Source of the DNA: Alphaproteobacteria bacterium HGW-Alphaproteobacteria-6
GTDB lineage: Bacteria > Pseudomonadota > Alphaproteobacteria > Rhodobacterales > Rhodobacteraceae
Assembly: GCA_002841115.1 (NCBI GenBank)
Contig: PHEC01000003.1
Span: 1-61,278 of the forward strand
DNA length: 61,278 nt
Direction: 5' to 3'
This document shows, one piece after another, positions 788-19,213 of the stretch. A program made the position numbers and the translations under genes. Numbering within the stretch: position 1 is the stretch's first letter; each line of letters opens with the position of its first letter. The notes below the pieces were generated by a model. The model worked only from the letters and a program-made list of their open reading frames with translations, ran no database searches and was not told where the DNA came from.

Positions 788-851
788 CCGGTGGTGCAGC
801 CGCACCCGAACCGCTAGCCTTGGCCCGATGCGTCCTCGCCAGGGGCAAGCC

Positions 852-1805
852 ATGCCGCCACGGATCAGCCTGCGCCAGCTCGACTATCTGGTCGCGGTCT
901 GCGACTGCGGGTCCGTCGCTGCGGCGGCGGCTCGGCTCAATGTCTCGTCGCCCTCGATCTCGGCGGCGATCGCCCAGGCCGAGGCCGCCTTCGGCCTCCA
1001 GCTCTTCATCCGCCGCCACGCCCACGGCCTGACGCCGACCCGGGGCGGGCTGCAGTTCGCCCGACAGGCCCGCCGGGTGCTGGCCGAGGCGGCGCATCTC
1101 GGCACGCTCGCCGCCGAGATCACCGGCACCGTCGGCGGCCCGCTGCATGTCGGCTGCCTGCTGACCTTCGCCCAGATCGTGCTGCCCGCCCTGCGCCGCG
1201 GTTTTGCCGAAAACCACCCCGCGGTCACGCTTCGGCAAAGCGAGGGCCATCAGGCCGCGCTGTTCGAGGGCTTGCGCATGGCGCGGATCGACCTCGCGCT
1301 GAGCTATGATCTGAACATGCCCGCCGACCTCGACTTTCAGCCGCTGGTCAGCCTGCCGCCCTATGCGCTCTTCGATCCGGGGCATGAACTGGCCACAAGG
1401 CCCGGCGTCTCGGCCGCCGACCTCGCACCCTATCCGATGGTGCTGCTCGACCTGCCGATGAGCGCGGATTACTTCCTGTCGTTCTTCACCGCGGCCGGCG
1501 AGGTGCCGCGGATCGCCGAACGCACCGCCGACATGGCGGTGATGCGCGGCCTGGTGGCCAATGGCCTTGGCTATTCGATCGCCAATATCCGCCCACCCGG
1601 CGATGTCGCCCCGGACGGCCGGCCCTTGTGCTTCGTGCCGCTCAACGGGCCGGTGCGGCCGATGCGGATGGGGCTGATGCTGGCCGCGGGCGCACGGCCG
1701 ACACCGGCCGCCGCCGCCTTCGTCGCCCATTGCCGGGCGGTGATCACGCCGGCATCGGTCCCCGGACTGCGGCTGGCCGATGACCGGCCAAGGCCGTCAC
1801 CGTGA
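852..1805 (+). CDS. LysR family transcriptional regulator
   Basis: MPPRISLRQLDYLVAVCDCGSVAAAAARLNVSSPSISAAIAQ: LysR HTH; internal ATG of the listed ORF chosen. Confidence 0.85.
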   Translation: MPPRISLRQLDYLVAVCDCGSVAAAAARLNVSSPSISAAIAQAEAAFGLQLFIRRHAHGLTPTRGGLQFARQARRVLAEAAHLGTLAAEITGTVGGPLHVGCLLTFAQIVLPALRRGFAENHPAVTLRQSEGHQAALFEGLRMARIDLALSYDLNMPADLDFQPLVSLPPYALFDPGHELATRPGVSAADLAPYPMVLLDLPMSADYFLSFFTAAGEVPRIAERTADMAVMRGLVANGLGYSIANIRPPGDVAPDGRPLCFVPLNGPVRPMRMGLMLAAGARPTPAAAAFVAHCRAVITPASVPGLRLADDRPRPSP

Positions 1806-1845
1806 TCCTGCCCGGCCCGCACGTCGCCGCCACCGACCGCAACCG

Positions 1846-2430
1846 TCACGCCCCGCCGGCATGGGCGGCGATGATCGCGGCGGCGCGCTCGGCGGTCAGG
1901 ATCGGCGGCAGGATCGTCAAGAGCCGGCCGGCCCCGTCCATGAGGTAGAGATAGCTGCCATGGGCATGGACCGGCCCGGAAAACGGATCCTCGAACAGCA
2001 CCTCGGACCTGACCCCGAAAAGGTCGCGCACCCGCGCCAGGTCGGCCGGCGTCCCGGTCAGCCCGACCCATCCCGGCCCGAGGCGCGCCAGCGCCGGGCC
2101 GAGCGTCGCCACCGTGTCGCGGGCCGGATCGACGGTGATCAGCACCGGCACCAGCGCGACGCCCTGCCCGGCAAGCCGGTCCGCGATCTCGGCCATCTGC
2201 GGCAGTGCCAGGGTGCAGATCGACTGGCAATCGGCATAGCCGAAGTAGACAAGCTGCATCCGGCCCTGCGGATCGGCCTCGCTGCGCGGCCGCCCGGTCT
2301 GGTCGGTCAGGGTGAAGGCGCCGCCAAGCGCCAGAGGAAGCGGCACACCCCCGGGCGCGGCCGCCTCGCCCCGGGCCGCGCCGGCGGCGCAAAGCGCCAG
2401 TGCCGCCAGCATGGTCCCGGCGCGGATCAC
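1846..2430 (-). CDS. SCO1/SenC family protein
   Basis: CxxxC motif YADCQSICTLALPQ and late His (GPVHAHGSYLYLMD); GTG start overlaps the stop of the upstream gene. Confidence 0.85.
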   Translation of the reverse strand: MIRAGTMLAALALCAAGAARGEAAAPGGVPLPLALGGAFTLTDQTGRPRSEADPQGRMQLVYFGYADCQSICTLALPQMAEIADRLAGQGVALVPVLITVDPARDTVATLGPALARLGPGWVGLTGTPADLARVRDLFGVRSEVLFEDPFSGPVHAHGSYLYLMDGAGRLLTILPPILTAERAAAIIAAHAGGA

Positions 2431-3002
2431 TCCGCCAGCCCCTTCAGGATCGCCGCATCCTGGTCCAGCCCAAGACCGAAATAACCGGTCGCGTCGATCG
2501 CCGCGTTGATGCGCGGATCGCGGCGAAACCACGGACCCTTGCCCGTGGCGCCAGGGTTGGCCGCCTGCCAGTCCTTCGTCCATTGGTTGGCCGCAGTCCA
2601 TTCCGCGGCCCCCTCGGCGCGGATCCGCTGCACCAGATAGACATTCTCGGCGCCGAGATCAGGATCGGTGATCAGCAGCCCGTCGACCTCGACCCGCTGG
2701 CCACAGAAGGGCAGAAGCTCGCTCGCTGCCCCCGAGAACACCGGCTGGGCGTTCTTCATCGGAAAGACCAGGACGCCGTCGGCTTCGCGCATCAGCACCA
2801 TCTGCCGCCGCCCGGCGCCGCAATCGGCCGGGCAGTCGCCGGTGACGGCGCAAAGGGCATCGCTGACGGTGGCGGTGAACCGCGCCGGGGCCTCGGCGTA
2901 AAGCCCCCAGGGCTTGGCCTCGGACCCGGCGGCGAAATCCTGCGCTGCCGCCGGGGTGGCGAAGGTGGCGGCGAGCAGAACGGCAATCGCGGCGCGGATC
3001 AT
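2427..3002 (-). CDS. Secreted hypothetical protein with Cys cluster
   Basis: Signal peptide MIRAAIAVLLAATFATPAAAQ; CAVTGDCPADCGAGRRQM motif; overlaps neighbours by 4 nt. Confidence 0.75.
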   Translation of the reverse strand: MIRAAIAVLLAATFATPAAAQDFAAGSEAKPWGLYAEAPARFTATVSDALCAVTGDCPADCGAGRRQMVLMREADGVLVFPMKNAQPVFSGAASELLPFCGQRVEVDGLLITDPDLGAENVYLVQRIRAEGAAEWTAANQWTKDWQAANPGATGKGPWFRRDPRINAAIDATGYFGLGLDQDAAILKGLAE

Positions 3003-3487
3003 TTCAGCGCCTCGGCGGGCACGGCGAAATCGGGCACCGGCCCGTAATCCTCGTGGGTCAGGCGGGTGATCCCGTCATTGCCGAGGATCTTCGAGACGGT
3101 GAGATAGTTCAGCCCGTCGCGGCGCCAGACCCGGCCCTCGGCGGTGACGGTGGCGCTGGCCAGGGCGAATTGCGCATCACCGCCATTGCTCGCGTCATCG
3201 CCCTCGATCGACAGGATCATGTAGACCTGCCCATCCCCGGTCAGCAGCCCGACCGGGATGCCGCCGGCCGAACACCACATCGCGCAAGTGTGATGGGCCG
3301 AGCCGATCACCGCATCCGGCCCGCCCATGACCCCGGAGAAATAGCACCAGGTGTCGATGAACTCGCCGGTCAGGGTCACCGCCTCGCCCTCGGCCGGGGA
3401 TGCGGCGGCGGCCGGCAACGGGGCGACAAGGGCGAGGGCGGCGAGGGCAAGGCTGAGGGTGGCGGCGATCCGGCGCGGCAGGGTCAT
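2999..3487 (-). CDS. Secreted hypothetical protein (DTWCYFSGVMGG...HHTCAMWC motifs)
   Basis: Signal peptide; conserved-looking Cys/His motifs; translationally coupled to next gene. Confidence 0.75.
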   Translation of the reverse strand: MTLPRRIAATLSLALAALALVAPLPAAAASPAEGEAVTLTGEFIDTWCYFSGVMGGPDAVIGSAHHTCAMWCSAGGIPVGLLTGDGQVYMILSIEGDDASNGGDAQFALASATVTAEGRVWRRDGLNYLTVSKILGNDGITRLTHEDYGPVPDFAVPAEALK

Positions 3488-3586
3488 GGCGGTTCTCCCG
3501 TCTGGTGGCCAGAGGGTGCCATGACCGGGGCAATCGGGAAAATCAAATCGACGCGGGCGGCGGGTTCCGGCCGGTCCGCGCGCGTC

Positions 3587-5434
3587 TCAGTCACCCTCGG
3601 CGACCAGATGGCCGTGACCGATGTCGTGCAGGACGCGCCGCGCCGGGCCGCGGCCCCTGGGATGAACCGGGCTTGGCACCTCGCCGGCCAGACGCGGCGC
3701 CGGCGGGCGGCGATGGCCGGGGTCAGGCACCGGCACCGCCGCGATCAGCCGCTGCGTATAGGGGTGGCGCGGATCGCCGAAGACCTGTTCGCGGCTGCCG
3801 GCCTCGACGATCTGGCCAAGATACATCACCGCCACCCGGTCGGCGATATTCTCGACCACCGCCATGTCGTGGCTGATGAACAGATAGGCGACACCGAAGT
3901 CGCGCTTCAGCACCGCCAGCAGGTCGAGCACCCGCGCCTGCACCGAGACATCCAGCGCCGAGACCGATTCGTCGGCGATGATCAGGTCGGGTTGCAGCGC
4001 CAGCGCCCGGGCGATGCAGATCCGCTGGCGCTGGCCGCCGGAAAACTCGTGCGGGTAGCGCTCGGCCTGATCGGCGCTCAGCCCGACCCGCGCCATGAGG
4101 TCGGCGGCGCGGGCGCGGCGCGCATCGCCGTCGCCGATGCCGTGGATCACCATCGGCTCGGCGATCTGCTCGCCGACCCGCATCCGCGGGTCGAGCGCCG
4201 CCATCGGGTCCTGAAAGACGATCTGCACCCGCCGGCGCAGCGCCTTCAGCGCCGCCGCATCATTGGTGGCAAGGCGCTGCCCGGCGATCTCGATCAGCCC
4301 CTGATGCGGCACCAGCCCGACCATGGCGCGGGCGATGGTCGACTTGCCGCAGCCCGATTCGCCGACCAGCGCGAAGGTCTCGCCGCGGCGGATCGCCAGG
4401 CTGACGCCGGCAACCGCGTGGACACCGTGGGTGACGCGGCCGAACACCCCGCCCTTCAGGTCGAAGCGGACGCGGACATCCTCGAGCCGTGCCACCGGCC
4501 CGGCGTCGTCGCCGTGCAGGCGCGCCGGATCGGGCCGGCCCAGCACCCGGTTGCGGGTCAGATCGACCGCCGCCCGCGCCGCCCCCGCCCCCATCCGCGG
4601 GACCGCCGCCAGAAGCGCGCGGGTATAGGCGGCCCGGGGCTGGGCGAAGATCGCCGGCGTCGGCCCTTCCTCGACCATCCGCCCCGATTGCATCACGATC
4701 ACCCGGTCGGCCATCTCGGCGACCACGCCCATGTCATGGGTGATCAGGATGATCGCGGTGCCGAGGTCGCGTTGCAGGTCGCGCAAGAGGTCGAGCACCT
4801 CGCGCTGCACCGTCACGTCAAGCGCCGTCGTCGGCTCGTCGGCGATCAGCACCTCGGGGCGCAGCGCCAGCGCCATGGCGATCATCACCCGCTGGCGCAT
4901 CCCGCCCGACAGCTCATGCGGATACTGTCCGAGCCGCCGCGCCGGTTCCGACAGGCGCACCGCGCCCAGCGCCTCGACCGCCCTTGCCCGCGCCCGGGCA
5001 CGCGACATCGGCTGATGGGCGCGGATCGCCTCGATCAGCTGGGTGCCGATCGTCAGCACCGGGTTGAGCGAGGTCATCGGTTCCTGAAAGATCATCGCGA
5101 TCCGGTCGCCGCGGATCGCCCGCATCCCGGCCTCGCCCAGCCGGGTCAGATCGCGCGTGCCCAGCCGGATCGTGCCGGCGGTCAGCCGCACCGCCGGCGG
5201 CGGCAGAAGCCCCATGATCGCCAGCGCGGTGATCGACTTGCCCGAGCCGCTTTCGCCGGCGATCGCCAGCGTCTCGCCGCGCATCAGGGTGAAGGAAAGA
5301 TCCGTGACCAGCGGGTGCAGCCCGGCCTCGGTATTCACCGAGACCTCAAGCCCGGTGACGCTCAGCACCGGGCCGGCCTTGGCGATCTCCGGGGCCGGTG
5401 CGGCCCCGGACCGGGTCATCGGCGTCCCGCTCAT
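3587..5434 (-). CDS. Dipeptide-type ABC transporter ATP-binding protein, two fused NBDs
   Basis: Two Walker A ([16 protein letters not shown]) and two signature motifs ([16 protein letters not shown]). Confidence 0.93.
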
Positions 5435-6390
5435 TCGAAGACGGCGCGCGGGAAGTAGAAGCTGACCACCCAGTTCGGCATGTCGACGATTTCGGATATC
5501 CTGAGATCGCCGCAGGTCGAGACCAGCATGTAGGCATCGACCGCCGCCATGCCGCGGGTCGCGCAGAGATGGTCGATCATCGCTGCCACCGCATCGCGCG
5601 CCGCCGTCATCAAGTCGGGGCCGATCCCGGTCGTCGCCTCGTAGCCCTTGGCGTCCAGATGCCGTGTCACCGGCCCCGGCGTGGTGAAGCGCGGCGTCTT
5701 CAGGCCGGCGCCCTTGACCAGATCAAGCGTCAGCACCACGTCCATCGGGCTCTCAATGGCGGTGCCGCAGACCTCGCCGTCACCCTGCGCGGCATGGGTG
5801 TCGCCGACGCTGAACAGCGCCCCCGCCACCTCGACCGGCAGGTAGAGCGTGGTGCCGGCCGCCAGGTCGCGGATATCGAGGTTGCCGCCGACCCGGCGCG
5901 GCGGCACCACCGAATGCAGCCCGGTCTCGGCCGGCGCATTGCCGATGGTGCCGGCGAAGGGCTTGAGCGGCACCCGCGCCTCGCGCCCGAACATCGCCGG
6001 GGCCATGCTGTCGGCGTCATAGCTCCAGACCTGCAGCGCCGGGTCGGGGAACTGATCGGCAAGCAGGCCGAAGCCGGGAATGTTCGCGGTCCAGCCAAAA
6101 CCGCGGCCGCCGTGGCGCTGCGGCGCAAAGCTGTCGATGGTGATCTTCAGGGCGTCGCCCGGTGCCGCACCGGTCACGAAAATCGGCCCCGAGACCGGGT
6201 TGATCTTGCCGAAATCCAGCGCCGTCACATCGGCGAGGGTGGACGACGGGCCAAGCTGGCCCGCCGAACTGTCATGACAGTGAAAGAGGATGGTGGCGCC
6301 GGGGTCCACCCTTTCGGCCGGGGCAAGCGAATTGTCCCAGCCGAAATGATGCTGCGCGCCGTGGATGGTGTAGTCGCAGGACTTGCACAT
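5431..6390 (-). CDS. Acetamidase/formamidase family protein
   Basis: MCKSCDYTIHGAQHHFGWDNSLAPAERVDPGATILFHCHDSSAGQL..., FmdA_AmdA family pattern including GDTHAAQGDGEVCGTAIE. Confidence 0.93.
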   Translation of the reverse strand: MCKSCDYTIHGAQHHFGWDNSLAPAERVDPGATILFHCHDSSAGQLGPSSTLADVTALDFGKINPVSGPIFVTGAAPGDALKITIDSFAPQRHGGRGFGWTANIPGFGLLADQFPDPALQVWSYDADSMAPAMFGREARVPLKPFAGTIGNAPAETGLHSVVPPRRVGGNLDIRDLAAGTTLYLPVEVAGALFSVGDTHAAQGDGEVCGTAIESPMDVVLTLDLVKGAGLKTPRFTTPGPVTRHLDAKGYEATTGIGPDLMTAARDAVAAMIDHLCATRGMAAVDAYMLVSTCGDLRISEIVDMPNWVVSFYFPRAVFE

Positions 6391-6394
6391 GGGC

Positions 6395-8008
6395 TTACTC
6401 GGTCACATAGACATAATCGTAGTTGACCGGGATCGAGACCGGATCGACGTAAAGCGCATCGGCCCCGCCCATGCGCGGCGATTTCATGGTGTAGCGCTGC
6501 TCGTTGAAGACCGGCACCCAGGGCGCGTCCGCCATCACCCCCATGTAGACATCCGACCACAGCTTCAGCCGCGCATCGACCGCGGCCGGATCGGTGATGC
6601 TGTCGGCCTCGACCGCCTTGGCATCAAGCGCCTCGTTGCAATACCACGACCAGTTCCAGCCACCCTCGACCGCGCCGGCGCAACCGAGGATCGGGCCGTA
6701 GAAGTTCGACGGATCGGGAAAGTCGGCGATCCAGGCCATACCGCCCGACCAGATCATCGGCGCGCTGCCGTTGCCGCCGGCCTCGATCACATTGGCCTGG
6801 GCCAAGGACTGGATCGACGCCTTGATGCCGATCCCGGCCAGATCCTGCTGGATCGCCTGGGCGATGCGCGGGTTGGGGTCGGTGTTCATGACGTATAGCT
6901 CGGTCTCGAAACCCTCGGCCAGCCCGGCCTCGGCCAGAAGCGCCTTGGCCGCCGCCGGATCGAAGGGATAGCCGGCATAGCCGTCGGTATAGCCCGGCAT
7001 GGTCGGCGGCAGCGGCTGGGTCGCCGGCACCGCGCGACCGTTGATGATCTGGGTGATCCGCTCCTTGTTGATCGCCATGTTGACCGCCTGGCGCACCTTG
7101 ACGTTGTCGAAGGGCGGGGTGTTGACGTTCAGCGTGATGTAGCCGGTGTGCAATTGTCCGCCCTCGACCACGCGGGCCGCCTGTTCGGGATCGGCCATCA
7201 CCTCGGTGAATTTCGCCGGCGGGATACCGTCACCGGGCACGTCGACCTCGCCCTGTTGCAGGCGCAGAAGGGCGACGATCGGCTCCTGCCCGACCTCGAA
7301 GGTGATGCTGTCGAGATAGGGCACGCCACCCCGCCAGTAATCGGCGTTCTTCTGGAACACCAGCCGCTGGCCCAGCGTCCATTCGGCCAGGCTGAAGGCG
7401 CCGGTGCCGACCGGCTGTTTGCCGAAATCGTCGCCCGCCGCCGCGACCGCCTCTTGCGGCACCACCGATGCGAAGTTCAGCGCCATCACATGCAGGAAGG
7501 TCGCATCGGGGCGCGAGAGCGTGATCTTCACCGTCAGCGGATCGACCACCTCGACCCCGGACAGGCCGTCGGGGCCGGCCGCCTCGAAGCCGGCGATCGA
7601 GCCGAAGAAGCCCGCGCCCGGCGACTGCGTGGCCGGGTCGGTCACCCGGTCGAGCGAATATTTCACGTCCTCGGCGGTCATCTCGCGGCCGTTGTGGAAC
7701 TTGACCCCCTGGCGCAGATGGAAGGTGAAGGTCATCCCGTCGTCCGAGATCTCGTAGCGCTCAGCCAGGCCGGGGCGCAGTTCGGTGGTGCCGGGGACGT
7801 AATCCATCAGCCCGTCGAAGATCGACTTGATCATCGACCAGTTCTGCCAGTCATAGCCGATCGCCGGGTCGAGCGTGGCGACATCATCCTTGTAGGTGAT
7901 GATGATCGACCCGCCGGGCCTGGCGTTGGGGTCGGGCTGATACTCCTGTGCTATGGCGGGCAGGGCCAGCGAAAGCATCAAGGCGGTCGAGGCAAGAAGG
8001 GTCTTCAT
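6395..8008 (-). CDS. ABC transporter substrate-binding protein (SBP family 5, DppA-like)
   Basis: Signal peptide; RPGGSIIITYKDDVATLDPAIGYDWQNW...; VKFHNGREMTAEDVKYSLDRV. Confidence 0.92.
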   Translation of the reverse strand: MKTLLASTALMLSLALPAIAQEYQPDPNARPGGSIIITYKDDVATLDPAIGYDWQNWSMIKSIFDGLMDYVPGTTELRPGLAERYEISDDGMTFTFHLRQGVKFHNGREMTAEDVKYSLDRVTDPATQSPGAGFFGSIAGFEAAGPDGLSGVEVVDPLTVKITLSRPDATFLHVMALNFASVVPQEAVAAAGDDFGKQPVGTGAFSLAEWTLGQRLVFQKNADYWRGGVPYLDSITFEVGQEPIVALLRLQQGEVDVPGDGIPPAKFTEVMADPEQAARVVEGGQLHTGYITLNVNTPPFDNVKVRQAVNMAINKERITQIINGRAVPATQPLPPTMPGYTDGYAGYPFDPAAAKALLAEAGLAEGFETELYVMNTDPNPRIAQAIQQDLAGIGIKASIQSLAQANVIEAGGNGSAPMIWSGGMAWIADFPDPSNFYGPILGCAGAVEGGWNWSWYCNEALDAKAVEADSITDPAAVDARLKLWSDVYMGVMADAPWVPVFNEQRYTMKSPRMGGADALYVDPVSIPVNYDYVYVTE

Positions 8009-8035
8009 CTCTCTCTCCTGTCGGTTGGTTATGGT

Positions 8036-8956
8036 TCAGCGCAGCCTTATGCGCGGGTCGATGAACGGGGTGACGAGGTCGGCCAGAAGGTTGCCGATGA
8101 CGATCGCGCAGGCCGAGACCAGCGTGACCCCCATGATGATCGGGATGTCGATGCGCTGGATCCCCTGCCAGGCCAGCTGACCGATGCCGGGCCAGCCGAA
8201 GACGCTTTCGACGACGACGATGCCGCCCATGAAGATGCCGATGTCGATGCCGATCATCGCGATTACCGGCAGCACCGCATTGGGCAGCGCATGGCGCAGG
8301 ATCACCCGGGCCCGGCCAAGGCCCTTGGCCCGCGCGGTGCGGATGTAATCGGTGCGCAGCACGTCGATCATCGCCGAGCGCATCATCCGGCTGTACCAGC
8401 CCGAGCCGAGGATGCCGAGGGTCAGCGCCGGCAGGACCAGATGCGCGAATGTCCCGTAGCCGCCGATCGGGAACCAGCCAAGCCGGACCGCGAAGACATA
8501 GAGCAACAGCAGGCTGACCACGAACTGCGGCGCCGAGACGGCGATGAACGAGGTCATCATCAGCGCCTGATCGGCGATCCGCCCGCGCCGCAGCGCCGCG
8601 ATCACCCCCATCGTCAACCCCAGCACCAGCTCGCACAGGATCGCCCCGGCCATCAGCAGCAGCGTCGCCGGCAGCCGCGCCGCGATCAGGGTCGCGACCT
8701 CGGTCTTCTGCAGGTAGCTGCGGCCGAGATCGCCCTGCACCAGCCCGCCCAGATAGCGCGCGTATTGCACCACGAAAGGCTGATCAAGGCCCAGTTGCTC
8801 GCGGATATTGGCCACCGTCTGCGGCGTCGCCGACCGGCCGGCAATCTGGCGCACCGGATCGGCGGGCAGCACGAAAAGCAGAAGGAAGGTGATGAAGCTG
8901 ACGCCGAGCAGGATCAGCGCCGACTGGATCAGCCGCCGGACCAGATAGGCCGCCAT
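8036..8956 (-). CDS. ABC transporter permease (DppB-like)
   Basis: MAAYLVRRLIQSALILLGVSFITFLLLFVLPADPVRQIAG; BPD_transp pattern. Confidence 0.93.
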   Translation of the reverse strand: MAAYLVRRLIQSALILLGVSFITFLLLFVLPADPVRQIAGRSATPQTVANIREQLGLDQPFVVQYARYLGGLVQGDLGRSYLQKTEVATLIAARLPATLLLMAGAILCELVLGLTMGVIAALRRGRIADQALMMTSFIAVSAPQFVVSLLLLYVFAVRLGWFPIGGYGTFAHLVLPALTLGILGSGWYSRMMRSAMIDVLRTDYIRTARAKGLGRARVILRHALPNAVLPVIAMIGIDIGIFMGGIVVVESVFGWPGIGQLAWQGIQRIDIPIIMGVTLVSACAIVIGNLLADLVTPFIDPRIRLR

Positions 8957-9843
8957 CAGTCCTGCCCCCGCTGGGTCGGGTCAAGCACGTCGCGCAGCGC
9001 GTCGCCGACCAGGTTGAAGGCCAGCGCCAGCAGAAGGATTGCGGCACCGGGCAGAAAGACCAGCCAGGGCGCGGACTGGAAATAGGTCTGGTTCTCGAAG
9101 ATGATGTTGCCCCAGCTTGGCGTCGGCGGCTGCACGCCGACGCCGAGATAGCTCAGCGTTGCCTCCAGCAGCACCGTGGTCGAGATGCCGAGCGTGCCCC
9201 AGACGATGATCGTCGGCACCAGATGCGGCAGGATGTGATGCCAGAGGATCCGCCCGGTGCCGGCGCCCAGCGCCCGCTCGGCGGCGATGAACTCGCGCGC
9301 CGCCAGCGCCGTCGTCTCGGTATAGATCACCCGCGCGGTCTGCACCCAGTTGACCAGCGCGATGACCATGGCGACGATCCACAGCGAGGGCGTGAAGATC
9401 GCCGCCAGGGTGATCGCCAGCAAGAGCGCCGGAAACGCCATCATCAGGTCGGTGAAGCGCATCAGCACCGCGCCGATCCAGCCGCGGAAATAGCCCGCCA
9501 CCAGCCCGACCAGGGTGCCGATCGTCAGCGCCATGCCATTGGCGACGACCCCGATCACCAGCGAGGTGCGCGCGCCGTAAAGGATCCGGCTGAGCAGGTC
9601 GCGCCCGAGAAGGTCGGTGCCAAGCGGATAGGCGCCGCCCGGCGGCAACGGCGCGCCCTCGATCGTCAGCCCGTCGAAATGCTGGGCCTCGGGCGGATAG
9701 GGCGCGAGCCAGGGCGCAAGCACCGCGCCGGCGACGACGAGGGCGATCAGCGCGATCCCGATCAGCGCCAGCGGCCGGCGCATCAGCCGCGCGGACGCCC
9801 CGCGCGGGGCGGCGGACATCGGGGCAAGGACGGTCCCGCTCAT
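8956..9843 (-). CDS. ABC transporter permease (DppC-like)
   Basis: YPLGTDLLGRDLLSRILYGARTSLVIGV; typical DppC. Confidence 0.93.
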   Translation of the reverse strand: MSGTVLAPMSAAPRGASARLMRRPLALIGIALIALVVAGAVLAPWLAPYPPEAQHFDGLTIEGAPLPPGGAYPLGTDLLGRDLLSRILYGARTSLVIGVVANGMALTIGTLVGLVAGYFRGWIGAVLMRFTDLMMAFPALLLAITLAAIFTPSLWIVAMVIALVNWVQTARVIYTETTALAAREFIAAERALGAGTGRILWHHILPHLVPTIIVWGTLGISTTVLLEATLSYLGVGVQPPTPSWGNIIFENQTYFQSAPWLVFLPGAAILLLALAFNLVGDALRDVLDPTQRGQD

Positions 9844-10466
9844 CCGCCCCCCCCTTCGGCGGCGCCGTCATCGCCGGGCGCGCTTGTCCCGCCGTCCTTG
9901 CGCGCGACGATGCGCCGCGCGGCTTCCTCGAAGCTGACCCGCCAGGCCATGGCGATCTGGCGCAACTGGGCATAGGCCTCATCCTCGCCCCGCTGCCCGC
10001 GCGCCGCCAGAAGCGTCACCGCCCGCACCACGGTCTGGCGCCCGTCCAGCCGGCGGCGCAGGTCGGCGACCTCGGCTGACAGCGCCAGCCTTGCGTCGAA
10101 GGCCGCCCGCGCGATCAGAAGCGCGCTGTAGGCGCCGCTGTCGCCGACGGGTTTGAGCAACTGGGCATGGGCGCCGGCCTGCAACGACCATTCGATCCGC
10201 CCCGGCGCCTCGGAGCCGATCAGCGCGATCATCGGCATCGGCGCCTCGCCGGGGCGCCAGGGCAATTGCCCGTCATGGCCCATGTCGGCGTCGAAGAAGA
10301 GAAAATCGGCCGCCAGCGCCGCGCCGCCCGGATCGGGCCAGAGGCTGGTCACCTCAAGCCCGATCGCGGTCAGCTGGCGGCTGAGCGCCTGCACCGTCGG
10401 ATGCGGCCGGTGCAGGATCAGCGCCCGCGCCCCGCCAAGGTTGAGGTAGCGGATCGGGTGCCTCAT
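9840..10466 (-). CDS. ANTAR-domain regulator (AmiR/NasT-like antiterminator)
   Basis: Pseudo-receiver followed by helical RNA-binding tail AVTLLAARGQRGEDEAYAQLRQIAMAWRVSFEEAARRIVAR; overlaps AmiC-like gene. Confidence 0.85.
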   Translation of the reverse strand: MRHPIRYLNLGGARALILHRPHPTVQALSRQLTAIGLEVTSLWPDPGGAALAADFLFFDADMGHDGQLPWRPGEAPMPMIALIGSEAPGRIEWSLQAGAHAQLLKPVGDSGAYSALLIARAAFDARLALSAEVADLRRRLDGRQTVVRAVTLLAARGQRGEDEAYAQLRQIAMAWRVSFEEAARRIVARKDGGTSAPGDDGAAEGGGG

Positions 10467-11557
10467 GACACCACCCTCAAGCCCGGACCGCGCGCCGCGC
10501 CGGCCCGCGGCCGGGTCAGGTAGGGATCGCCCGCCACCGGCGCGCGGCGCTCGAGCACCGCGAAGGCGCCGCCGCGGACCTGCGCGATCAGCACCGGTAG
10601 CGTGGTGTGATGGGTCTGCGGGTCGATGGCGCTTGCCGCCGCCGCCGGGCCGGCCAGAAGCTGCGCCAGGCTTTCCGCCTCGGCACCGGGCCGATGCGCC
10701 AGAAAGCCTGCCAGTTCATGCACCGCGGCATGGGCGGCCGCCTCGTGCGAGGACCCGAAGGGCCCGCGGCCCGGCCAGCCCGGCGCCCCGCGGAAATAGG
10801 GGCCGGCGGCGATCAGCCCCTCGGCCCGCTCGCCCAGCGCCGGCAGTTCGCATTCGGTCAGGTTGCACGACAGCACCGGGCAATGCGCCGGGCCGAAGGC
10901 CGGATCGGCGCGCCCCAGCGCGTGGCAGGCAGCGAGGAATTCATAGGACGACGGCCCGATCAGCGAATTGAGGATGAAATCCGGCCGGGTCTGGCGGATC
11001 TCTTCGATCATCCGGCCGACCTCGGCCGAGCCGATCGGCAGGTAGCGCTCGCCGAGGATCTGCCCGCCGGCCGCCACCACCGTCTCGCGCGCCAGCCGGT
11101 TCATCTCCCATCCCCAGATATAGTTCGATCCGGTCAGATAGGCGCGCCGCCCGAAGGCCGGCATCGCCCAGTCGAGCAGCGGCAGAAGGTGCTGGTTTGG
11201 GCAGGCATGGGTATAGACGACATGGTCCGAGGCCTCGAACCCCTCGTAGGGCACGGTATACCAGAGCGTGCCGCCGGCCTTTTCCAGGGTCGGGATCACC
11301 TCCTTGCGGCTCCAGGAGGTGACGCAACCGATGACGTGGCGGGCGCGCGTCGTGCGCAGGATCTCCTCGCAGAGCGGGCCGTAGAGGTCGATGTTGCCGC
11401 CGGGGTCACGCTCGACCGGGACGAAGGCGATATCGGTGGCGGGATCGGCGTTGATCGCGGCAATCGCCGACAGGACGCCGGCGCGACAGGCCTCGGAGAT
11501 CAGCGAGTAGCTGCCCGACCGGGAATAGAGAACCCCAAGCTCGATACGCCGCTTCAT
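10463..11557 (-). CDS. AmiC/UrtA-like periplasmic-type ligand-binding sensor
   Basis: MKRRIELGVLYSRSGSYSLISEACRAGVLSAIAAINADPATDIAFVPVERDPGGNIDLYGPLCEEIL; no signal peptide, adjacent to ANTAR gene. Confidence 0.87.
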   Translation of the reverse strand: MKRRIELGVLYSRSGSYSLISEACRAGVLSAIAAINADPATDIAFVPVERDPGGNIDLYGPLCEEILRTTRARHVIGCVTSWSRKEVIPTLEKAGGTLWYTVPYEGFEASDHVVYTHACPNQHLLPLLDWAMPAFGRRAYLTGSNYIWGWEMNRLARETVVAAGGQILGERYLPIGSAEVGRMIEEIRQTRPDFILNSLIGPSSYEFLAACHALGRADPAFGPAHCPVLSCNLTECELPALGERAEGLIAAGPYFRGAPGWPGRGPFGSSHEAAAHAAVHELAGFLAHRPGAEAESLAQLLAGPAAAASAIDPQTHHTTLPVLIAQVRGGAFAVLERRAPVAGDPYLTRPRAGAARGPGLRVVS

Positions 11558-11574
11558 CGCTTCATCCGCCCCCC

Positions 11575-11604
11575 GGAACCTGAAAACCCGGAACCCTGAA
11601 ACCC
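11575..11604. repeat. Two imperfect 15-bp tandem units (ggaacctgaaaaccc / ggaaccctgaaaccc)
   Basis: Direct reading. Confidence 0.7.
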
Positions 11605-11812
11605 GAGGGCGGCAGACCCGAAAACCAAAAACCCCGCCTTCCGTGGGCACGGCGAAGGTGCGGACGGACTGCAGGGCTCGGATGCCGCCGGCCTCGGGCC
11701 GGGATTTCGCCGAGGATGACCGCGACGTGGCCCGGCGTCAAGCGAGACCGCGTGCCTGCCGGCCCCGCAAGCGACCGTGATGGCCGGGACCGTTGCGCGG
11801 GCGGCGCCGGCG

Positions 11813-11850
11813 GAGGCCTCCGGCGGAGGTATTTTGAAACAGAAGAAAGC
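11813..11850 (-). repeat. Dispersed intergenic element copy (GAGGCCTCCGGCGGAGGTATTTTGAAACAGAAGAAAGC)
   Basis: Matches copies at 25702-25742 and 25763-25800. Confidence 0.75.
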
Positions 11851-11851
11851 C

Positions 11852-11903
11852 GGGCGGGTTTCGGGCGGGCGGGTTTCGGGCGGGCGGGTTTCAGGCGGGC
11901 GGG
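11852..11903. repeat. 15-bp tandem repeat GGGCGGGCGGGTTTC (~3.5 copies), G-quadruplex-capable
   Basis: Direct reading; G3 runs with 1-4 nt loops on + strand. Confidence 0.85.
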
Positions 11904-11932
11904 CCGGGGCGCGCGGCCCCGGCCGGTGTCGT

Positions 11933-14704
11933 TCAGGCGGCTTCGACCCGGACGGCGGCGAACTTGAACTCGGGGATCTTGCCGTAGGGGTCGAGCGCGG
12001 GGTTGGTCAGCACATTGGCCGCCGCCTCGACGAAGGCGAAGGGGACAAAGACCATGTCCTCGGCCACCGCCCGGTCGGCCCGCGCCATCGTGGTGATCGC
12101 GCCGCGCCGGGTCACGAGGCGCACCTGTCCGCCCGGCTCGATGCCGAGGCGGCGCAGCGTGGCGGGGTGGAGCGAGCAATTGGCCTCGGGCTCGACCGCG
12201 TCGAGAACCTTCGAGCGCCGGGTCATCGAGCCGGTGTGCCAGTGTTCAAGCTGGCGCCCGGTGGTCAGGATCATCGGGTAGTCGGCATCCGGCACCTCGT
12301 CGGGGGCGATGATCGAGGCCGGGGTGAAGCGGGCGCGCCCGCCGGCACGCGGGAAGCCGTCGCCGAAGACCACCGCATGGCCGGGATGATCGGGGGCCGG
12401 GCAGGGATAGGTCACGGCCCCTTCCGCCTCGAGCCGGTCCCAGGTGATGTTGTCGAGCGATGCCATCCCCTCTTTCATCTCGGCGAAGACTTCGCGCGGG
12501 TGGCTGTAGGTCCAGCCGAGGCCGAGGCGGTTGGCCAGCGCCTGGGTGATCGCCCAGTCCTCGCGCGCCTCGCCGGGGGGGGCGACGGCGGGCCGGCCGA
12601 TCTGCACCTGGCGGTTGGTATTGGTCACCGTGCCGGATTTCTCGTAGAAGGCCGCGGCGGGCAGGATCACGTCGGCGTAATTCGCCGTCTCGGTCAGGAA
12701 GATGTCCTGCACCACGAGGTGATCGAGCTTTGCCAGTGCCGCGCGGGCATGGGTCAGGTCGGGGTCCGACATCGCCGGATTCTCGCCAAGGATATACATG
12801 CCCCGGATGGTGCCGGCATGGACCGCGTCAAGGATCTCGGTCACCGTCAGGCCCTTGTCGCCCGACCAGTCGCCGCTGCCCCAGAGCGCCGAGAAATGGC
12901 CGCGGACCGCGGCATCGGTCACCGTCTGGTAGTCGGGCAGGAACATCGGGATCAGGCCGGCGTCCGAGGCGCCCTGGACGTTGTTCTGGCCGCGCAAGGG
13001 ATGCAGCCCGGTGCCGGGCCGGCCGACATGGCCGCACATCAGAGCCAGAGAGATCAGGCAGCGCGAATTGTCGGTGCCGTGGATGTGCTGGGAAATCCCC
13101 ATGCCCCAGAAGATCATCCCCGCCTTGGCGGTGGCGAAGTCGCGCGCCACCGCGCGCAGGGTCTCGGCCGGGATGCCGCAGATCGCCGCCATCTTCTCGG
13201 GGGCGAAATCGGCCAGATGGGCGCGCTCGGCCTCGAAATTCTCGGTCCAGGCCTCGATGTATTGCCGATCATAGAGCCCTTCCTCGACGATCACATGGCA
13301 GATCGCGTTCAGCATCGCGACATCGGTGCCGGGGCGGAACTTCAGCATCTGGCTGGCGAAGCGGCGCAGGCCGACGCCGCGCGGGTCCATCACGATCAGC
13401 TTGCCGCCGCGTTTGGTGAACTGCTTGAAATAGGTCGCCGCGACCGGGTGGTTCTCGACCGGGTTGCAGCCGATGACGATGGCGACATCGGCGTGTTCGA
13501 TCTCGTTGAAGGTCGCGGTCACCGCACCCGAACCGACATTCTCGATCAGGGCGGCGACCGAGGAGGCATGGCAAAGCCGGGTGCAGTGATCGACATTGTT
13601 GTGGCCGAAGCCCTGGCGGATCAACTTCTGGAAGAGATAGGCCTCCTCGTTGGAGCATTTGGCCGAGCCGAAGCCGGCGACCGCCTGCCCGCCGGTCGCT
13701 GCTGCCAGCGCGGCGAGGCCGCCGGCGGCCGCATCGAGCGCCTCGTCCCAGCTTGCGTCGCGGAAATGCGCCTGCCAGTTGGCCGGATCGACGTTCAGCC
13801 CCTTGGCCGGCGCATCCGCGCGCCGGATCAAGGGCCGGGTCAGCCGGTGCGGGTGGTGGATGTAGTCGAAGCCGAAGCGGCCCTTGACGCAAAGCCGCCC
13901 CTGGTTCGCCGGGCCGTTGATGCCCTCGACGTATTTCACCTTGCCGTCCTTGACCTTCAGGCTGACCTGGCAGCCGACGCCGCAGAACGGGCAGACCGAT
14001 TTCACCTCGGTGTCGAAATCGCGGCTGTCGCCAACCTCATCGGCATCGAGCACGGTTGCCGGCATCAGCGCGCCGGTCGGGCAGGCCTGCACGCATTCGC
14101 CGCAGGCGACGCAGGTCGATTGCCCCATCGGATCGGCCATGTCGAAGACCGGGAAGGTGTCATGCCCCCGGCCCGCCATGCCGATCACGTCATTGACCTG
14201 CACCTCGCGGCAGGCGCGCACGCAAAGCCCGCACTGGATGCAGGCATCCAGATTGACCCGCATCGCGACATGGCTGTCATCGAGCAGCGGGATCCGCGCG
14301 GTATCCATCGCCGCAAAGCGGCTGTCGGTGACGCCGCTTTGCGCCGCCATGTCCCACAGCTGCGACGAGGCATCATGCGCCTTCGCCCGATCGGGCTGAT
14401 CGGCCAGCAGGAGTTCCATCACCATCGCGCGCGACTTTTCCGCCCGCGCGCTGTCGGTCCTGACCACCATGCCGTTGACCGGGTTGCGGCAGCAGGAGGC
14501 GGCCAGCACCCGCTCGCCCTCGACCTCGACCACGCAGGCGCGGCAGTTGCCGTCGGGGCGGTAGCCGGTCTGCTCCTTGTGGCACAGATGCGGTATGGTC
14601 AGGCCCTCGCGCCGGGCGACCTGCCAGATCGTCTCGCCGGGGGCGGCACTGACGGCGCGGCCGTCAAGGGTGAAGGGGATCGCGTCGGCCATGTCAGACC
14701 TCAT
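11933..14704 (-). CDS. fdsA: Formate dehydrogenase alpha (catalytic) subunit
   Basis: N-terminal 2Fe-2S (CHKEQTGYRPDGNCRACVVEVEGERVLAASC), 4Fe-4S ferredoxin motifs, molybdopterin oxidoreductase core, catalytic Cys in VDHCTRLCHA. Confidence 0.95.
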   Translation of the reverse strand: MRSDMADAIPFTLDGRAVSAAPGETIWQVARREGLTIPHLCHKEQTGYRPDGNCRACVVEVEGERVLAASCCRNPVNGMVVRTDSARAEKSRAMVMELLLADQPDRAKAHDASSQLWDMAAQSGVTDSRFAAMDTARIPLLDDSHVAMRVNLDACIQCGLCVRACREVQVNDVIGMAGRGHDTFPVFDMADPMGQSTCVACGECVQACPTGALMPATVLDADEVGDSRDFDTEVKSVCPFCGVGCQVSLKVKDGKVKYVEGINGPANQGRLCVKGRFGFDYIHHPHRLTRPLIRRADAPAKGLNVDPANWQAHFRDASWDEALDAAAGGLAALAAATGGQAVAGFGSAKCSNEEAYLFQKLIRQGFGHNNVDHCTRLCHASSVAALIENVGSGAVTATFNEIEHADVAIVIGCNPVENHPVAATYFKQFTKRGGKLIVMDPRGVGLRRFASQMLKFRPGTDVAMLNAICHVIVEEGLYDRQYIEAWTENFEAERAHLADFAPEKMAAICGIPAETLRAVARDFATAKAGMIFWGMGISQHIHGTDNSRCLISLALMCGHVGRPGTGLHPLRGQNNVQGASDAGLIPMFLPDYQTVTDAAVRGHFSALWGSGDWSGDKGLTVTEILDAVHAGTIRGMYILGENPAMSDPDLTHARAALAKLDHLVVQDIFLTETANYADVILPAAAFYEKSGTVTNTNRQVQIGRPAVAPPGEAREDWAITQALANRLGLGWTYSHPREVFAEMKEGMASLDNITWDRLEAEGAVTYPCPAPDHPGHAVVFGDGFPRAGGRARFTPASIIAPDEVPDADYPMILTTGRQLEHWHTGSMTRRSKVLDAVEPEANCSLHPATLRRLGIEPGGQVRLVTRRGAITTMARADRAVAEDMVFVPFAFVEAAANVLTNPALDPYGKIPEFKFAAVRVEAA

Positions 14705-16439
14705 CGGGGAAATGTTTCATCGTCAGGCGGATCGGGTTCGGCGCCGCCTGGCCAAGCCCGCAGATCGAGGCATCGGCCATCACCTCGCAAAGATCCTCAA
14801 GCAGCTCGCGGTCCCAGCTTTCGGCCTGCATCAGCTTGACCGCCTTCTCGCAGCCGACCCGGCAGGGGGTGCACTGGCCACAGGACTCAGCCTCGAAAAA
14901 GCGCAGCATGTTGAGTGCGGCGTCCCTGGCGCTGTCCTGGTCCGACAGGACCACCACGGCGGCCGAGCCGATGAAGGTGCCATAGGGTTGCAGCGTGTCG
15001 AAATCGAGCGGCACATCGTTGATCGAGGCCGGCAGCAGCCCCGAGGACGGCCCGCCCGGCTGATAGGCCTTGAAGACATGCCCCTCGGCCATGCCGCCGG
15101 CGGCCTCGATGATGTCGGTGATGGTCGAGCCGGCCGGCAAGAGGTGGACGCCGGGCCGCGCCACCCGGCCCGAGACCGAATAGCTGCGCAGGCCCTTGCG
15201 CCCGTTCTTCTCGACCGCGTTCAGCACCTCGGGGCCCTCGCGGCAGATCCGCGCGATCCAGTGCAGGGTCTCGACATTGTGAACCAGGGTCGGGCGGTCG
15301 AAGATGCCGACGGCGGCGACATAGGGCGGACGCTGGCGCGGGATGCCGCGCTTGCCCTCGATCGATTCGATCATCGCGCTTTCCTCGCCGCAGATATAGG
15401 CACCCGCACCGCGGCGCAGCTCGATGAAGCCGGGGGCGCAGATGCCGGCCTGTTCCAGCGCCGCGATCTCGGTCGCGAGGATATGCAGCACGGCCGGGTA
15501 TTCGTCGCGCATGTAGACAAAGCAGCGTTCGGCCTCGACCGCCCAGGCGGCGATCAGCATGCCCTCCAGCATCAGATGCGGGCGGCGCTCAAGGTAGTGG
15601 CGGTCCTTGAAGGTGCCCGGCTCGCCCTCGTCGCCGTTCACCGCGAGGTAGCGCGGGCCGGCGCCCGCGCGCACGAAGCCCCATTTCCGGCCCGCGGGGA
15701 AACCGGCGCCGCCAAGGCCGCGCAGCCCGGCGGCCAGCAGGTCTTCCTGCACCTCCTGCCAGTTGCCATCGCGGCGCAGCTTGGCGATGGTCTGATAGCC
15801 GCCATCCCGGCGGCGATACTCCTCCAGCGTCTCATAGGCCGGGATCTCGGGGTGAAAATCGCCCGAAGCCACGATCTCAGCGACCTTTTCCGGTGTCGCG
15901 TGATCGACATGGCGGTGGCCGATCTCGACCACCGGCGCGGTGTCGCAGCGCCCCATGCAGGGCGCGCGCAGCACCCGGATCCGGGCCGGATCATGGCCGG
16001 CGGTCAGCGCCGCGACCAGCGCCTCTGCCCCGGCCAGTTCGCACGACAGCGACTCGCAGACCCGGATCGTCAGGTCGGGCGGCGGTGCCTCGTCCTCGCG
16101 CCGCGGGTCGAAATGCGCGTAGAAGGTCGCGACCTCCCAGATCTCGGCCATGCCGGTGCCGAGTTCCTCGGCCAGGGCGCGCAGATGGGCGGCGCCAAGA
16201 TGGCCGTAACGGTCCTGGATGCGGTGCAGGTATTCGATCAGGAGGTCGCGCCGGCGCGGCCCCTCGCCCAGCAGCGCGCGCACCTCGTCCCAGGCCCGGT
16301 CGTCAAGCTGTCGGCCCTTCGGCGTCTTGCGCCCGCGCCCCTTGCCCGATTTCCACACCCCGTTCCGGTCGTCGTTCTTGTCGTCGCGTGCCATCGTCGC
16401 CGCCATTCCTTCTTCGGACCGGCCCCGGTGCCCGTCCAC
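14694..16439 (-). CDS. fdsB: Formate dehydrogenase beta subunit, fused NuoE-like and NuoF-like (FdsG-FdsB) domains
   Basis: NuoE part (VCESLSCELAGAEAL...APCMGRCDTAP) fused to NuoF part (GLRGLGGAGFPAGRKWGF...GDEGEPGTFKDRHYLE; ESCGQCTPCRVGC). Start codon uncertain; an internal Met may be used. Confidence 0.93.
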   Translation of the reverse strand: MDGHRGRSEEGMAATMARDDKNDDRNGVWKSGKGRGRKTPKGRQLDDRAWDEVRALLGEGPRRRDLLIEYLHRIQDRYGHLGAAHLRALAEELGTGMAEIWEVATFYAHFDPRREDEAPPPDLTIRVCESLSCELAGAEALVAALTAGHDPARIRVLRAPCMGRCDTAPVVEIGHRHVDHATPEKVAEIVASGDFHPEIPAYETLEEYRRRDGGYQTIAKLRRDGNWQEVQEDLLAAGLRGLGGAGFPAGRKWGFVRAGAGPRYLAVNGDEGEPGTFKDRHYLERRPHLMLEGMLIAAWAVEAERCFVYMRDEYPAVLHILATEIAALEQAGICAPGFIELRRGAGAYICGEESAMIESIEGKRGIPRQRPPYVAAVGIFDRPTLVHNVETLHWIARICREGPEVLNAVEKNGRKGLRSYSVSGRVARPGVHLLPAGSTITDIIEAAGGMAEGHVFKAYQPGGPSSGLLPASINDVPLDFDTLQPYGTFIGSAAVVVLSDQDSARDAALNMLRFFEAESCGQCTPCRVGCEKAVKLMQAESWDRELLEDLCEVMADASICGLGQAAPNPIRLTMKHFPDEV

Positions 16440-16601
16440 GCCTTCAGGTCGCTTCTGTCAAACCGTGACCGCCCGATCAACCCGGCCTGTCGGTCGAATC
16501 ATTGGCGGAAGGTATCGGTTTTTGCGCACTCGCGCGCAGAATAGCCCGCCCTGCCCGCCGGCCAATGGACAGGATGCGGCGCTTTCGCTATCCGGGGCGG
16601 C

Positions 16602-16871
16602 ATGACATCGGATCAGCCTTGGGATCAGGAACTGGACGCGACCGGGCTTTTGTGCCCGCTGCCGGTGCTCAAGGCGCGCAAGCGGCTGATGGCAATGGCG
16701 CCGGGCGCCGTGCTCAGGCTGGTCGCGACCGACCCGGCGGCGGTGATCGACGTGCCGCATTTCTGCGCCGAGGCCGGGCACGCGCTGATCGCCGCATCGG
16801 CGGAGGGCGCGGCCCAGGTCTATCTGATCCGCCGCCGCGCCGACGCGGCTCAGAGCCCGAAGCCGGCATAG
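16602..16871 (+). CDS. tusA: TusA-family sulfurtransferase
   Basis: ELDATGLLCPLPVLKARKRLMAMAPGAVLRLVATDPAA: CPxP motif. Confidence 0.9.
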   Translation: MTSDQPWDQELDATGLLCPLPVLKARKRLMAMAPGAVLRLVATDPAAVIDVPHFCAEAGHALIAASAEGAAQVYLIRRRADAAQSPKPA

Positions 16872-18118
16872 GGCAGGAATCGCACCCTGTCGCCGGGCGC
16901 GATCTCGACCGCCGCGTCGGGGAGTTCGACCAGCCCGGTCGCCCAACTCAGCCCGCTGATCCGGCCCGAGCCTTCCGAGGCGAAGACCTCGGCCCGGCCC
17001 TCGGCGTCGATCCGCGCGCGCAGGTATTCCCGCCGCCCGGCCTTCTTGCGCTTGGCAAAGGCCGCCGGCACGGCAAAGGCCTGTGGCTCGGCCCAGCCGG
17101 CCCCGGCCATCAGGCCAAGCGCCGGGCGCGCGAAGATCAGCGCACAGACCAGGGCGGCGACCGGGTTGCCCGGCAGGCCGAAGACCGGCACCCCCTGCCA
17201 GAGCGCCAGCGCCAGCGGCCGGCCCGGCTTCATCGCGATGCGCCAGCTTGACAGAGATCCCCGCGCACCCAGCAGCGCCGAGACATGATCCTCGTCGCCG
17301 GCCGAGGCGCCGCCCGAGGTCAGGATGACATCCGCCGTCGCCGCCCCCGCATCCAGCCGCGCCGCGATCGCCGCCGTGTCGTCGGGTGCATGGCCAAGGT
17401 CGACCGCCTCGAACCCCCAGCCCCGCGCCAGCGCCAGCAGCATCGGCCGGTTGGCATCCCAGATCTGATGCGGCAGGGCCGGCAGGGCCGGATCGGCGAT
17501 GATCTCGTCGCCGGTCGACAGGACCGCAACGCGCAAGCGGCGAAAGACGCTGACCGCGCCGATGCCCAGCGCCGACAACAGCGCCAGGTCGGGTGCGCGC
17601 AGCCGATGCCCGCGCGGCAGGGCCAGGGCGCCCTCGTCCAGATCCTCGCCGGCGCGGCGGGTGTTGGCGCCGGGCCGCACCGGCCCGTCAAAGGCCACCC
17701 ACCGGCCGTCGCTGGCGCAATCCTCCTCCAGCACCACGGTATCGACGCCCTCGGGCAGCACCGCGCCGGTCAGGATGCGGATCGCCTGACCCGCCGGCAC
17801 CCTTCCGGCAAAGGGCTGCCCCGCCGCCGCCCGGCCCGCGACCAGCGCCAGCCGCTGCACCCCGGAACCGGTCGCGGCATGGGCAAAGCCGTAGCCGTCA
17901 ACCGCCGAATTGACCTGCGGCGGGTTGGCGCGGCGCGCCTGCGCGTCCACGGCCAGCACCCGGCCCAGGGCCTCGGCCGGGGTCAGCCCCTCGGTCCCCT
18001 CCACCACCACCAGCGCCGCGCGCAGCCGCGCCAGCGCGTCATCGACCGGCACCCAGGCCACCCCCTGCGGCATGGCAAAACAGTCGTCGCGCATCCGCGG
18101 CGGGACCAGATCGCTCAC
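16850..18118 (-). CDS. moeA: Molybdopterin molybdotransferase MoeA
   Basis: NSAVDGYGF, LSTGDEI, TSGGASAGDEDHV, KPGRPLALALWQGVPVFGLPGNPVAA motifs. Confidence 0.95.
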   Translation of the reverse strand: MSDLVPPRMRDDCFAMPQGVAWVPVDDALARLRAALVVVEGTEGLTPAEALGRVLAVDAQARRANPPQVNSAVDGYGFAHAATGSGVQRLALVAGRAAAGQPFAGRVPAGQAIRILTGAVLPEGVDTVVLEEDCASDGRWVAFDGPVRPGANTRRAGEDLDEGALALPRGHRLRAPDLALLSALGIGAVSVFRRLRVAVLSTGDEIIADPALPALPHQIWDANRPMLLALARGWGFEAVDLGHAPDDTAAIAARLDAGAATADVILTSGGASAGDEDHVSALLGARGSLSSWRIAMKPGRPLALALWQGVPVFGLPGNPVAALVCALIFARPALGLMAGAGWAEPQAFAVPAAFAKRKKAGRREYLRARIDAEGRAEVFASEGSGRISGLSWATGLVELPDAAVEIAPGDRVRFLPYAGFGL

Positions 18119-18606
18119 GGCCCGACCTCGCGCAGGATGAAATCGGCGATGGCGCGGGTATCGTCGAGATCGAAGACCGGCAACGCCGTTTCCGCCGCGC
18201 CGTCCGAGGCCAGCGCCCGCACCGTCGGGTCGCCGGGCGCGATCAGCGGATGGCCGGCGGCGACCCGGTGGGTCTCGATCTTGGGATGGCCCTCGCGCTT
18301 GTAGCCCTCGACCAGCACCAGATCGACCGGCGAGAGCCGCGCCAGAAGATCGGCCAGCGCCGGCTCTTCGGCGCCGCGCAACTCGTGCATCAATGCCCAG
18401 CGCAGCGGCGAGGCGACGATGACCTCGCGCGCGCCGGCCATCCGGTGGCGATGGCTGTCGCGCCCGGGATGGTCGACATCGGCCCCGTGATGGGCATGCT
18501 TGACCGTCGAGACGCTCAGCCCGCGCCCGGTGATCTCGGCCACCAGCCGCTCCATCAGATGGGTCTTGCCGGTATTCTTCCAGCCGGTGACGCCGTAAAG
18601 CCTCAT
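18115..18606 (-). CDS. mobB: Molybdopterin-guanine dinucleotide biosynthesis adaptor MobB
   Basis: MRLYGVTGWKNTGKTHLMERLVAEI; VKHAHHGADVDHPGRDSHRHRMAGA; VEGYKREGHPKIE. Confidence 0.95.
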   Translation of the reverse strand: MRLYGVTGWKNTGKTHLMERLVAEITGRGLSVSTVKHAHHGADVDHPGRDSHRHRMAGAREVIVASPLRWALMHELRGAEEPALADLLARLSPVDLVLVEGYKREGHPKIETHRVAAGHPLIAPGDPTVRALASDGAAETALPVFDLDDTRAIADFILREVGP

Positions 18607-19208
18607 GCCATCAACCTTTCGGCCTCGGTGATATCCTCGGGCGTGTTGATGTTGAAGAAGGGATCGAAGGGCACCGGGGCGAATTCCGCGGTGCCGGCGC
18701 CGTGGCCCTCGGTCCAGCGCACGATCTTGCGCAGCCCGGCGGCGAGCGCCGCGCGCAGATCCTCGCGCAGGGCCACCGGCCAGAGGCCGAAGGTCGGGTG
18801 CTGCCAGAGCCTGCCGTCGCCATCCCGGCTGGCGGCAAGCGCCAGGCCGGATTGGCCGGCGGCGGCGCCGAGCCGCACCACCAGATCGGCGGGAAAGAAC
18901 GGCGTGTCGGCCGCGACGGTGACGATGGCCGGCAGGCCCAGCCCGGCGGCCCAGTCGAGCCCGGCCAGCACCCCGGCCAGCGGGCCGGGATGATCGGCGA
19001 TACTGTCGGGCAGGACCGGCAGGCCGAAGCCGGCGAACCGCGCCGGATCGCCATTGGCATTGATCGCCAGCCGCCCACATTGCGGCGCCAGCCGCGCGAT
19101 CACATGATCGATCAGCCGCCGGCCCGCCACGACCCTGAGGCCCTTGTCGCCGCCGCCCATCCGGGTCGCCCGGCCGCCGGCAAGGATGACACCCGGCAGC
19201 CGCGTCAT
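18603..19208 (-). CDS. mobA: Molybdenum cofactor guanylyltransferase MobA
   Basis: LPGVILAGGRATRMGGGDKGLRVVAGRRLIDHV; ATG at 19208 preferred over the repeat-encoded extension. Confidence 0.95.
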   Translation of the reverse strand: MTRLPGVILAGGRATRMGGGDKGLRVVAGRRLIDHVIARLAPQCGRLAINANGDPARFAGFGLPVLPDSIADHPGPLAGVLAGLDWAAGLGLPAIVTVAADTPFFPADLVVRLGAAAGQSGLALAASRDGDGRLWQHPTFGLWPVALREDLRAALAAGLRKIVRWTEGHGAGTAEFAPVPFDPFFNINTPEDITEAERLMA

Positions 19209-19213
19209 GCCCC

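Follow-up and report, generated by a model that had tools for sequence, protein, structure and literature searches.

The window considered here is a stretch of 61,278 nucleotides of contig PHEC01000003.1 (assembly GCA_002841115.1), which belongs to Alphaproteobacteria bacterium HGW-Alphaproteobacteria-6 of the Rhodobacteraceae. Its minus strand carries a cassette of seven genes, running from 11557 to 3587, which encode in 5′ to 3′ order an AmiC-like sensor, an AmiR-type ANTAR protein, DppC, DppB, an SBP-5 binding protein, a short FmdA/AmdA hydrolase and a fused OppDF ATPase. All frames are intact, and the genes named in an earlier sequence-only reading of this DNA are all present and fall into the expected families. 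In all likelihood, this is a self-contained and inducible cassette for the scavenging of small amides, controlled by AmiR-dependent antitermination. From amiC to the ATPase gene, the intergenic spacings are −4, −4, −1, +27, +4 and −4 bases. The start of AmiC was corrected to 11557, and the listed GTG at 11650 was dropped. The genes of the cassette are the following:

10463–11557, minus strand: AmiC-like cytoplasmic amide sensor (Peripla_BP_5), 364 amino acids; PF13433, E 3e-74 (longer frame)
9840–10466, minus strand: AmiR-type antiterminator (pseudo-receiver and ANTAR), 208 amino acids; PF21332 AmiR_N and PF03861 ANTAR, both above cut-off
8956–9843, minus strand: DppC-type permease; PF00528, PF12911
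8036–8956, minus strand: DppB-type permease; PF00528, PF19300
6395–8008, minus strand: SBP-5 (DppA-like) binding protein, 537 amino acids, with a signal peptide; PF00496, E 1e-102
5431–6390, minus strand: short FmdA/AmdA-family amide hydrolase, 319 amino acids; PF03069, E 1e-58, above cut-off
3587–5434, minus strand: fused OppD-OppF ATPase, 615 amino acids; two ABC_tran and oligo_HPY stretches, GsiA-like

The arrangement is conserved well beyond the window. Loci were sampled by a search with the binding protein, taking one genome per species, and the best 80 of 591 confirmed public loci were used. Nearly all public loci with enough contig hold the seven genes in the same order, and their hosts belong to the Rhodobacterales and Hyphomicrobiales; L054 and L118 are among the few in which AmiC/AmiR were not detected. 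The same order is found in the twelve genomes of the G series that have the cassette, of which one copy is in pieces (L041) and one is cut by the contig end (L034). On pSymB of Sinorhizobium, the gene order is again the same, and no ANTAR gene is annotated at the place of AmiR. Near the cassette loci, no recurrent outside neighbour was identified, the one candidate being an unannotated mixed cluster of 44 proteins from 29 loci on both strands. An operon for amide uptake and hydrolysis under AmiC/AmiR control, as the sequence-only reading had proposed, is thus supported by the conserved order, which extends to plasmids of Klebsiella and Sinorhizobium.

The two regulators resemble the known amide-sensing pair. 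The top match of the AmiC-like protein in the PDB is AmiC itself (1pea, E 2e-36), and that of its partner is AmiR (1qo0_D). The AmiC-like protein has no signal peptide and its gene overlaps the AmiR homologue. By analogy with this pair, it is most likely a putative small-amide sensor which would release AmiR on ligand binding. Its pocket region departs from that of AmiC: in AmiC numbering, S85, Y104 and E109 are retained, and positions 83, 149, 152, 153 and 154 are altered (among them Y152 to W, R154 to W and Y83 to V, I or T). The signature N149/W152/G153/W154 is present in 82 of 82 loci, and the changes at these four positions are common to the Klebsiella and Sinorhizobium copies. Residues 149, 152, 153 and 154 presumably lie at the amide pocket of the AmiC structure.

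Ahead of the first gene, the cassette has a structured leader with the following features:

11736–11741, minus strand: −35-like TTGACG upstream of the leader; TTGAC is conserved in relatives
11624–11711, minus strand: putative antitermination leader RNA with hairpin P1, hexaloop hairpin P2 and a terminator; covariance model 42 bits
11686–11684 (GGC), 11683–11678 (loop ATCCGA) and 11677–11675 (GCC), minus strand: hairpin P2
11631–11627, minus strand: T-run in which the leader terminator ends

The P2 consensus is GGC-ANNCRN-GCC, often preceded by the short hairpin P1. An intrinsic terminator follows P2 and stands before the first gene of the cassette, and its 5′ arm starts with the 3′ arm of P2, as in the dual-hairpin RNA targets of ANTAR proteins (PMC3369931). 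The A at loop position 1 occurs in 77 of 77 loci, a value fixed by the search pattern, which demanded GG[C/T]A and CC and thereby partly built in both this A and the stem, while loop positions 4 and 5 were free; position 5 is G or A in 76 of the 77. Of the 77 loci, 64 have the element TTGAC ahead of P2, mostly at a distance of 43–60 bases from the hairpin, compared with 7% of shuffles.

The pairing itself is supported by covariation. Over 43 leaders, 94.5% of the cells in the terminator stem are paired, and two-sided changes number 51 against 12.7 in shuffles and at most 3 when the alignment is slid. For P1 and P2 together, the same leaders give 27 two-sided changes against 9.9 in shuffles, all of them from P1, as P2 is invariant. 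A covariance model of the leader, in which the window leader is one training row, scores 42 bits at 11711–11624 and 17.7 bits at its next-best match in the genome, which leaves one strong leader in this genome. In a search of 150 genomes, some of which may overlap the training set of the model, all matches with E<1e-5 adjoin an AmiC gene on its upstream side; three weaker ones do not. No Rfam family corresponds to the leader, and positions 1–20000 of the window gave only weak chance matches below the gathering scores.

The hydrolase belongs to the FmdA/AmdA family by its match to PF03069 and by the motifs GGNxD and GDxHAxQGDGE; in the form GGNLD and GDTHAAQGDGEVCGT, these are nearly invariant over 83 loci. 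A second gene of the family lies on contig 135 of the same genome (G000, 37630–38460), and it was rejected as a duplicate of the cassette gene, as it is longer and has as neighbours the genes of a GntR regulator, a TIM-barrel protein and a different ATP-binding cassette (ABC) transporter.

The cassette also encodes all the parts of a Dpp/Opp-type (SBP-5) ABC importer, namely the binding protein, the DppB and DppC permeases and the OppD and OppF ATPases. DppC is in the same place in all examined loci whose contigs extend that far. A complete Dpp-type transporter had been read from the sequence alone; its parts are indeed all there, but the ATPase is one fused protein, so that five parts lie in four genes. 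The same reading had considered such a transporter unusual beside AmiC/AmiR, and across the conserved loci it turns out to be the standard make-up of this cassette. The binding protein is close to PDB entry 8UPI (E 9e-278), whose ligand is presumably aminoserine. Another SBP-5 protein is encoded outside the cassette at 24021–25667, on the plus strand.

A switch of the following kind may be proposed by analogy with AmiR and EutV. With no inducer present, AmiC would hold AmiR, and transcripts from the own promoter of the cassette would end at the leader terminator. The binding of a small amide to AmiC would free AmiR, whose ANTAR domain would stabilise the hairpins P1 and P2. Because the 3′ arm of P2 doubles as the 5′ arm of the terminator, the latter could then not form, and the operon would be read through. 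The Dpp-type transporter would import an amide-bearing substrate, and the FmdA-family enzyme would convert it into ammonia and an acid. The leader fits AmiC/AmiR antitermination of one operon, and the most probable role of the cassette is to detect a small amide, take it up and cleave it as a source of nitrogen. A small amide is argued by the FmdA family together with AmiC, and the best guess would be an acetamide-like or amine-bearing short amide.

Three known systems help to place the cassette. The amiEBCRS operon of Pseudomonas aeruginosa likewise has an AmiC/AmiR pair and a leader with a terminator (PMC3369931), but its AmiE belongs to another enzyme family, its AmiC has other pocket residues and a Dpp transporter is absent. 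Formamide operons of the Fmd/Urt type share the FmdA_AmdA hydrolase and an ABC importer, and differ in the branched-chain type of that transporter, in a longer FmdA and in the lack of AmiC/AmiR (P. veronii, PMC13209695). The RNAs targeted by EutV, NasR and AmiR resemble the leader in their two small hairpins, the A-initial second hexaloop and the terminator overlap, whereas the leader has mostly C at loop position 4 and an unconserved P1 loop sequence.

The closest parallel comes from plasmids. Among plasmid records, 940 match the cassette FmdA and 746 of these come from Klebsiella; over all organisms, most of the matching plasmids are typed as conjugative. One Klebsiella region was examined, on the conjugative plasmid pRHBSTW-00441_3 (CP056522.1, locus L161). 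It holds the seven genes in the same order within 7.8 kilobases (kb) and is plasmid-borne, unlike the cassette of the window; fec genes adjoin it. Its proteins are 52–70% identical to those of the window except for the regulators, where AmiC is 37% identical and AmiR similar only locally. The leader is too diverged for the model (R1), and its P2-like loop, AATGAA, is canonical A1/G4 by eye. In Klebsiella sp. KOS9, acetamidase activity was found in lysates (2026, PMC13209695), and the sole acetamidase gene belongs to an operon of 8 kb that also contains amiC, amiR and four ABC genes.

Several points weigh against the interpretation as an AmiR-controlled small-amide cassette. The window has a poor −10 element and gives no scoring sigma-70 site. 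In the canonical ANTAR target, both hexaloops start with A and have G as their fourth base (PMC3369931), whereas loop position 4 of P2 is C in 54 of 77 loci and G in 2; the A1 and G4 pair is not found in both hexaloops, the P1 loop sequence being unconserved. Against the NCBIfam formamidase equivalog NF045496, FmdA scores 127 bits, far below the curated cut-off of 500. An SBP-5 protein with an amine-binding Asp is poorly suited to acetamide. The KOS9 enzyme is named AmiE and its activity is not backed by a knockout (PMC13209695), and the operon, on pKOS9-W1, is likened to the L161 cassette by described composition and length, not by sequence.

The alternative that survives best concerns the substrate. 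Rather than acetamide or formamide, it would be an amide that bears an amine, for example the amide of an amino acid or a gamma-glutamyl amide, hence the SBP-5 transporter; we regard this as possible but rather unlikely. In its favour, D429 of the binding protein, the equivalent of DppA Asp408, is invariant in 83 of 83 loci, and the stretch holding DppA Arg355 is missing. These two residues presumably bind the amine and the carboxylate of the peptide, and the presumed aminoserine ligand of 8UPI would agree with an amine-bearing substrate. The invariant altered signature at the AmiC pocket region points the same way, as does a sister clade of short FmdA proteins, 60–70% identical, in five loci (L036–L040, from G025, G002, G001, G007 and G034). 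In 5 of 5, a glutamine-synthetase-like ligase accompanies the enzyme, which would fit the release and reuse of ammonia or an amine. However, these loci have a Liv-type transporter in place of the Dpp cassette, so the type of transporter need not follow the substrate of the enzyme, and the acetamidase activity of KOS9 (PMC13209695) likewise argues against this substrate. The idea that IpuF sets an example for the action of FmdA on gamma-glutamyl amides was dropped, as its paper describes an amidotransferase-type hydrolase. A stronger claim is doubtful, namely that the cassette is devoted to an unrecognised amide bearing an amine and has an AmiC subfamily of its own (W152/W154), a variant ANTAR code (A1-C4-R5 loop) in Alphaproteobacteria and relatives on enterobacterial plasmids. 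The cassette is of a known type, with a variant leader and sensor pocket.

A role in formamide utilisation, as a counterpart of the fmd/urt operons in which the transporter has been exchanged, is unlikely. The membership in the FmdA_AmdA family and the pairing of related enzymes of the same genus with Liv-type transporters would agree with it. The 319-residue short form, however, lies far under the formamidase equivalog cut-off, and no conserved formate-handling gene is found near the cassette loci.

In the window itself, formate dehydrogenase (FDH) genes of the type linked to nicotinamide adenine dinucleotide (NAD) lie upstream of the cassette at 16439–11933 on the minus strand:

11933–14704, minus strand: FDH alpha subunit FdsA, a neighbour outside the cassette; TIGR01591 738 bits, above cut-off
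14694–16439, minus strand: fused FdsG-FdsB (NuoE-NuoF type), a neighbour outside the cassette; PF01257, PF01512, PF10589

An Fdh-alpha match above cut-off together with subunits of the NuoE/NuoF type characterises an NAD-dependent Fds-type enzyme, and the block extends upstream with MoeA (18118–16850) and MobB (19080–18115). The direct adjacency on the minus strand noted earlier is confirmed, with a gap of 375 bases between FdsA and AmiC. Just past the FdsA stop, at 11903–11924, lies a perfect hairpin of 9 pairs, very rich in guanine and cytosine (GC) and without a T-run, whose stability does not clearly exceed that of shuffles (z −1.3). A short tandem of CCCGCCCGAAA-like units is present between FdsA and the leader at 11844–11890.

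In relatives, the two systems are independent. None of the 83 other AmiC cassette loci contains FdsA or FdsGB, and in 69 of them the sequence ahead of AmiC extends for 5 kb or more. FdsA has a strong match in 11 of 13 same-genus genomes besides that of the window, at 81–88% identity except in G008 (39%, its only one); this last genome, with a completeness rating of 100%, carries the cassette but no close FdsA. FdsGB lies beside FdsA in 6 of 7 FDH regions of relatives, the seventh being cut by the contig end, and in the relatives examined the match covers most of the length of the fused protein. The six long regions include MoeA and MobB in three and the cassette in none. In G013 and G005, both systems are present on different large contigs, and five genomes (G001, G002, G003, G010, G011) have the FDH without this cassette. 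Thus, of the neighbourhood proposed earlier, the amide operon is conserved and the FDH is not conserved with it.

Because the two are unlinked in relatives, their adjacency in the window is a peculiarity of this lineage or, with lower probability, a product of the assembly, and the FDH is a chance neighbour rather than part of the seven-gene unit. A misjoin is quite improbable: the metagenome assembly is fragmented (288 contigs, 87% complete) and the junction occurs in no relative, but the GC content is even across it, at 68–72%. The proposed amide-to-CO2 module, in which an imported amide would yield ammonia and formate, the adjacent FDH would recover NADH, and the two would act and be inherited together, is suggested by the shared strand and adjacency in this contig, by formamidases within the FmdA family and by the NAD-linked type of the FDH, and was rejected as highly improbable, since the linkage is absent from all 83 loci, each system occurs alone or on separate contigs in relatives, and a promoter element and the leader terminator stand between them.

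The comparison illustrates that gene adjacency alone, as with the FDH, can hint at a pathway which comparison takes away. The leader offers a direct handle for reporter assays of the substrate. The locus represents a compact and portable cassette for amide use, which has one putative RNA switch and occurs commonly in Rhodobacterales and Hyphomicrobiales.

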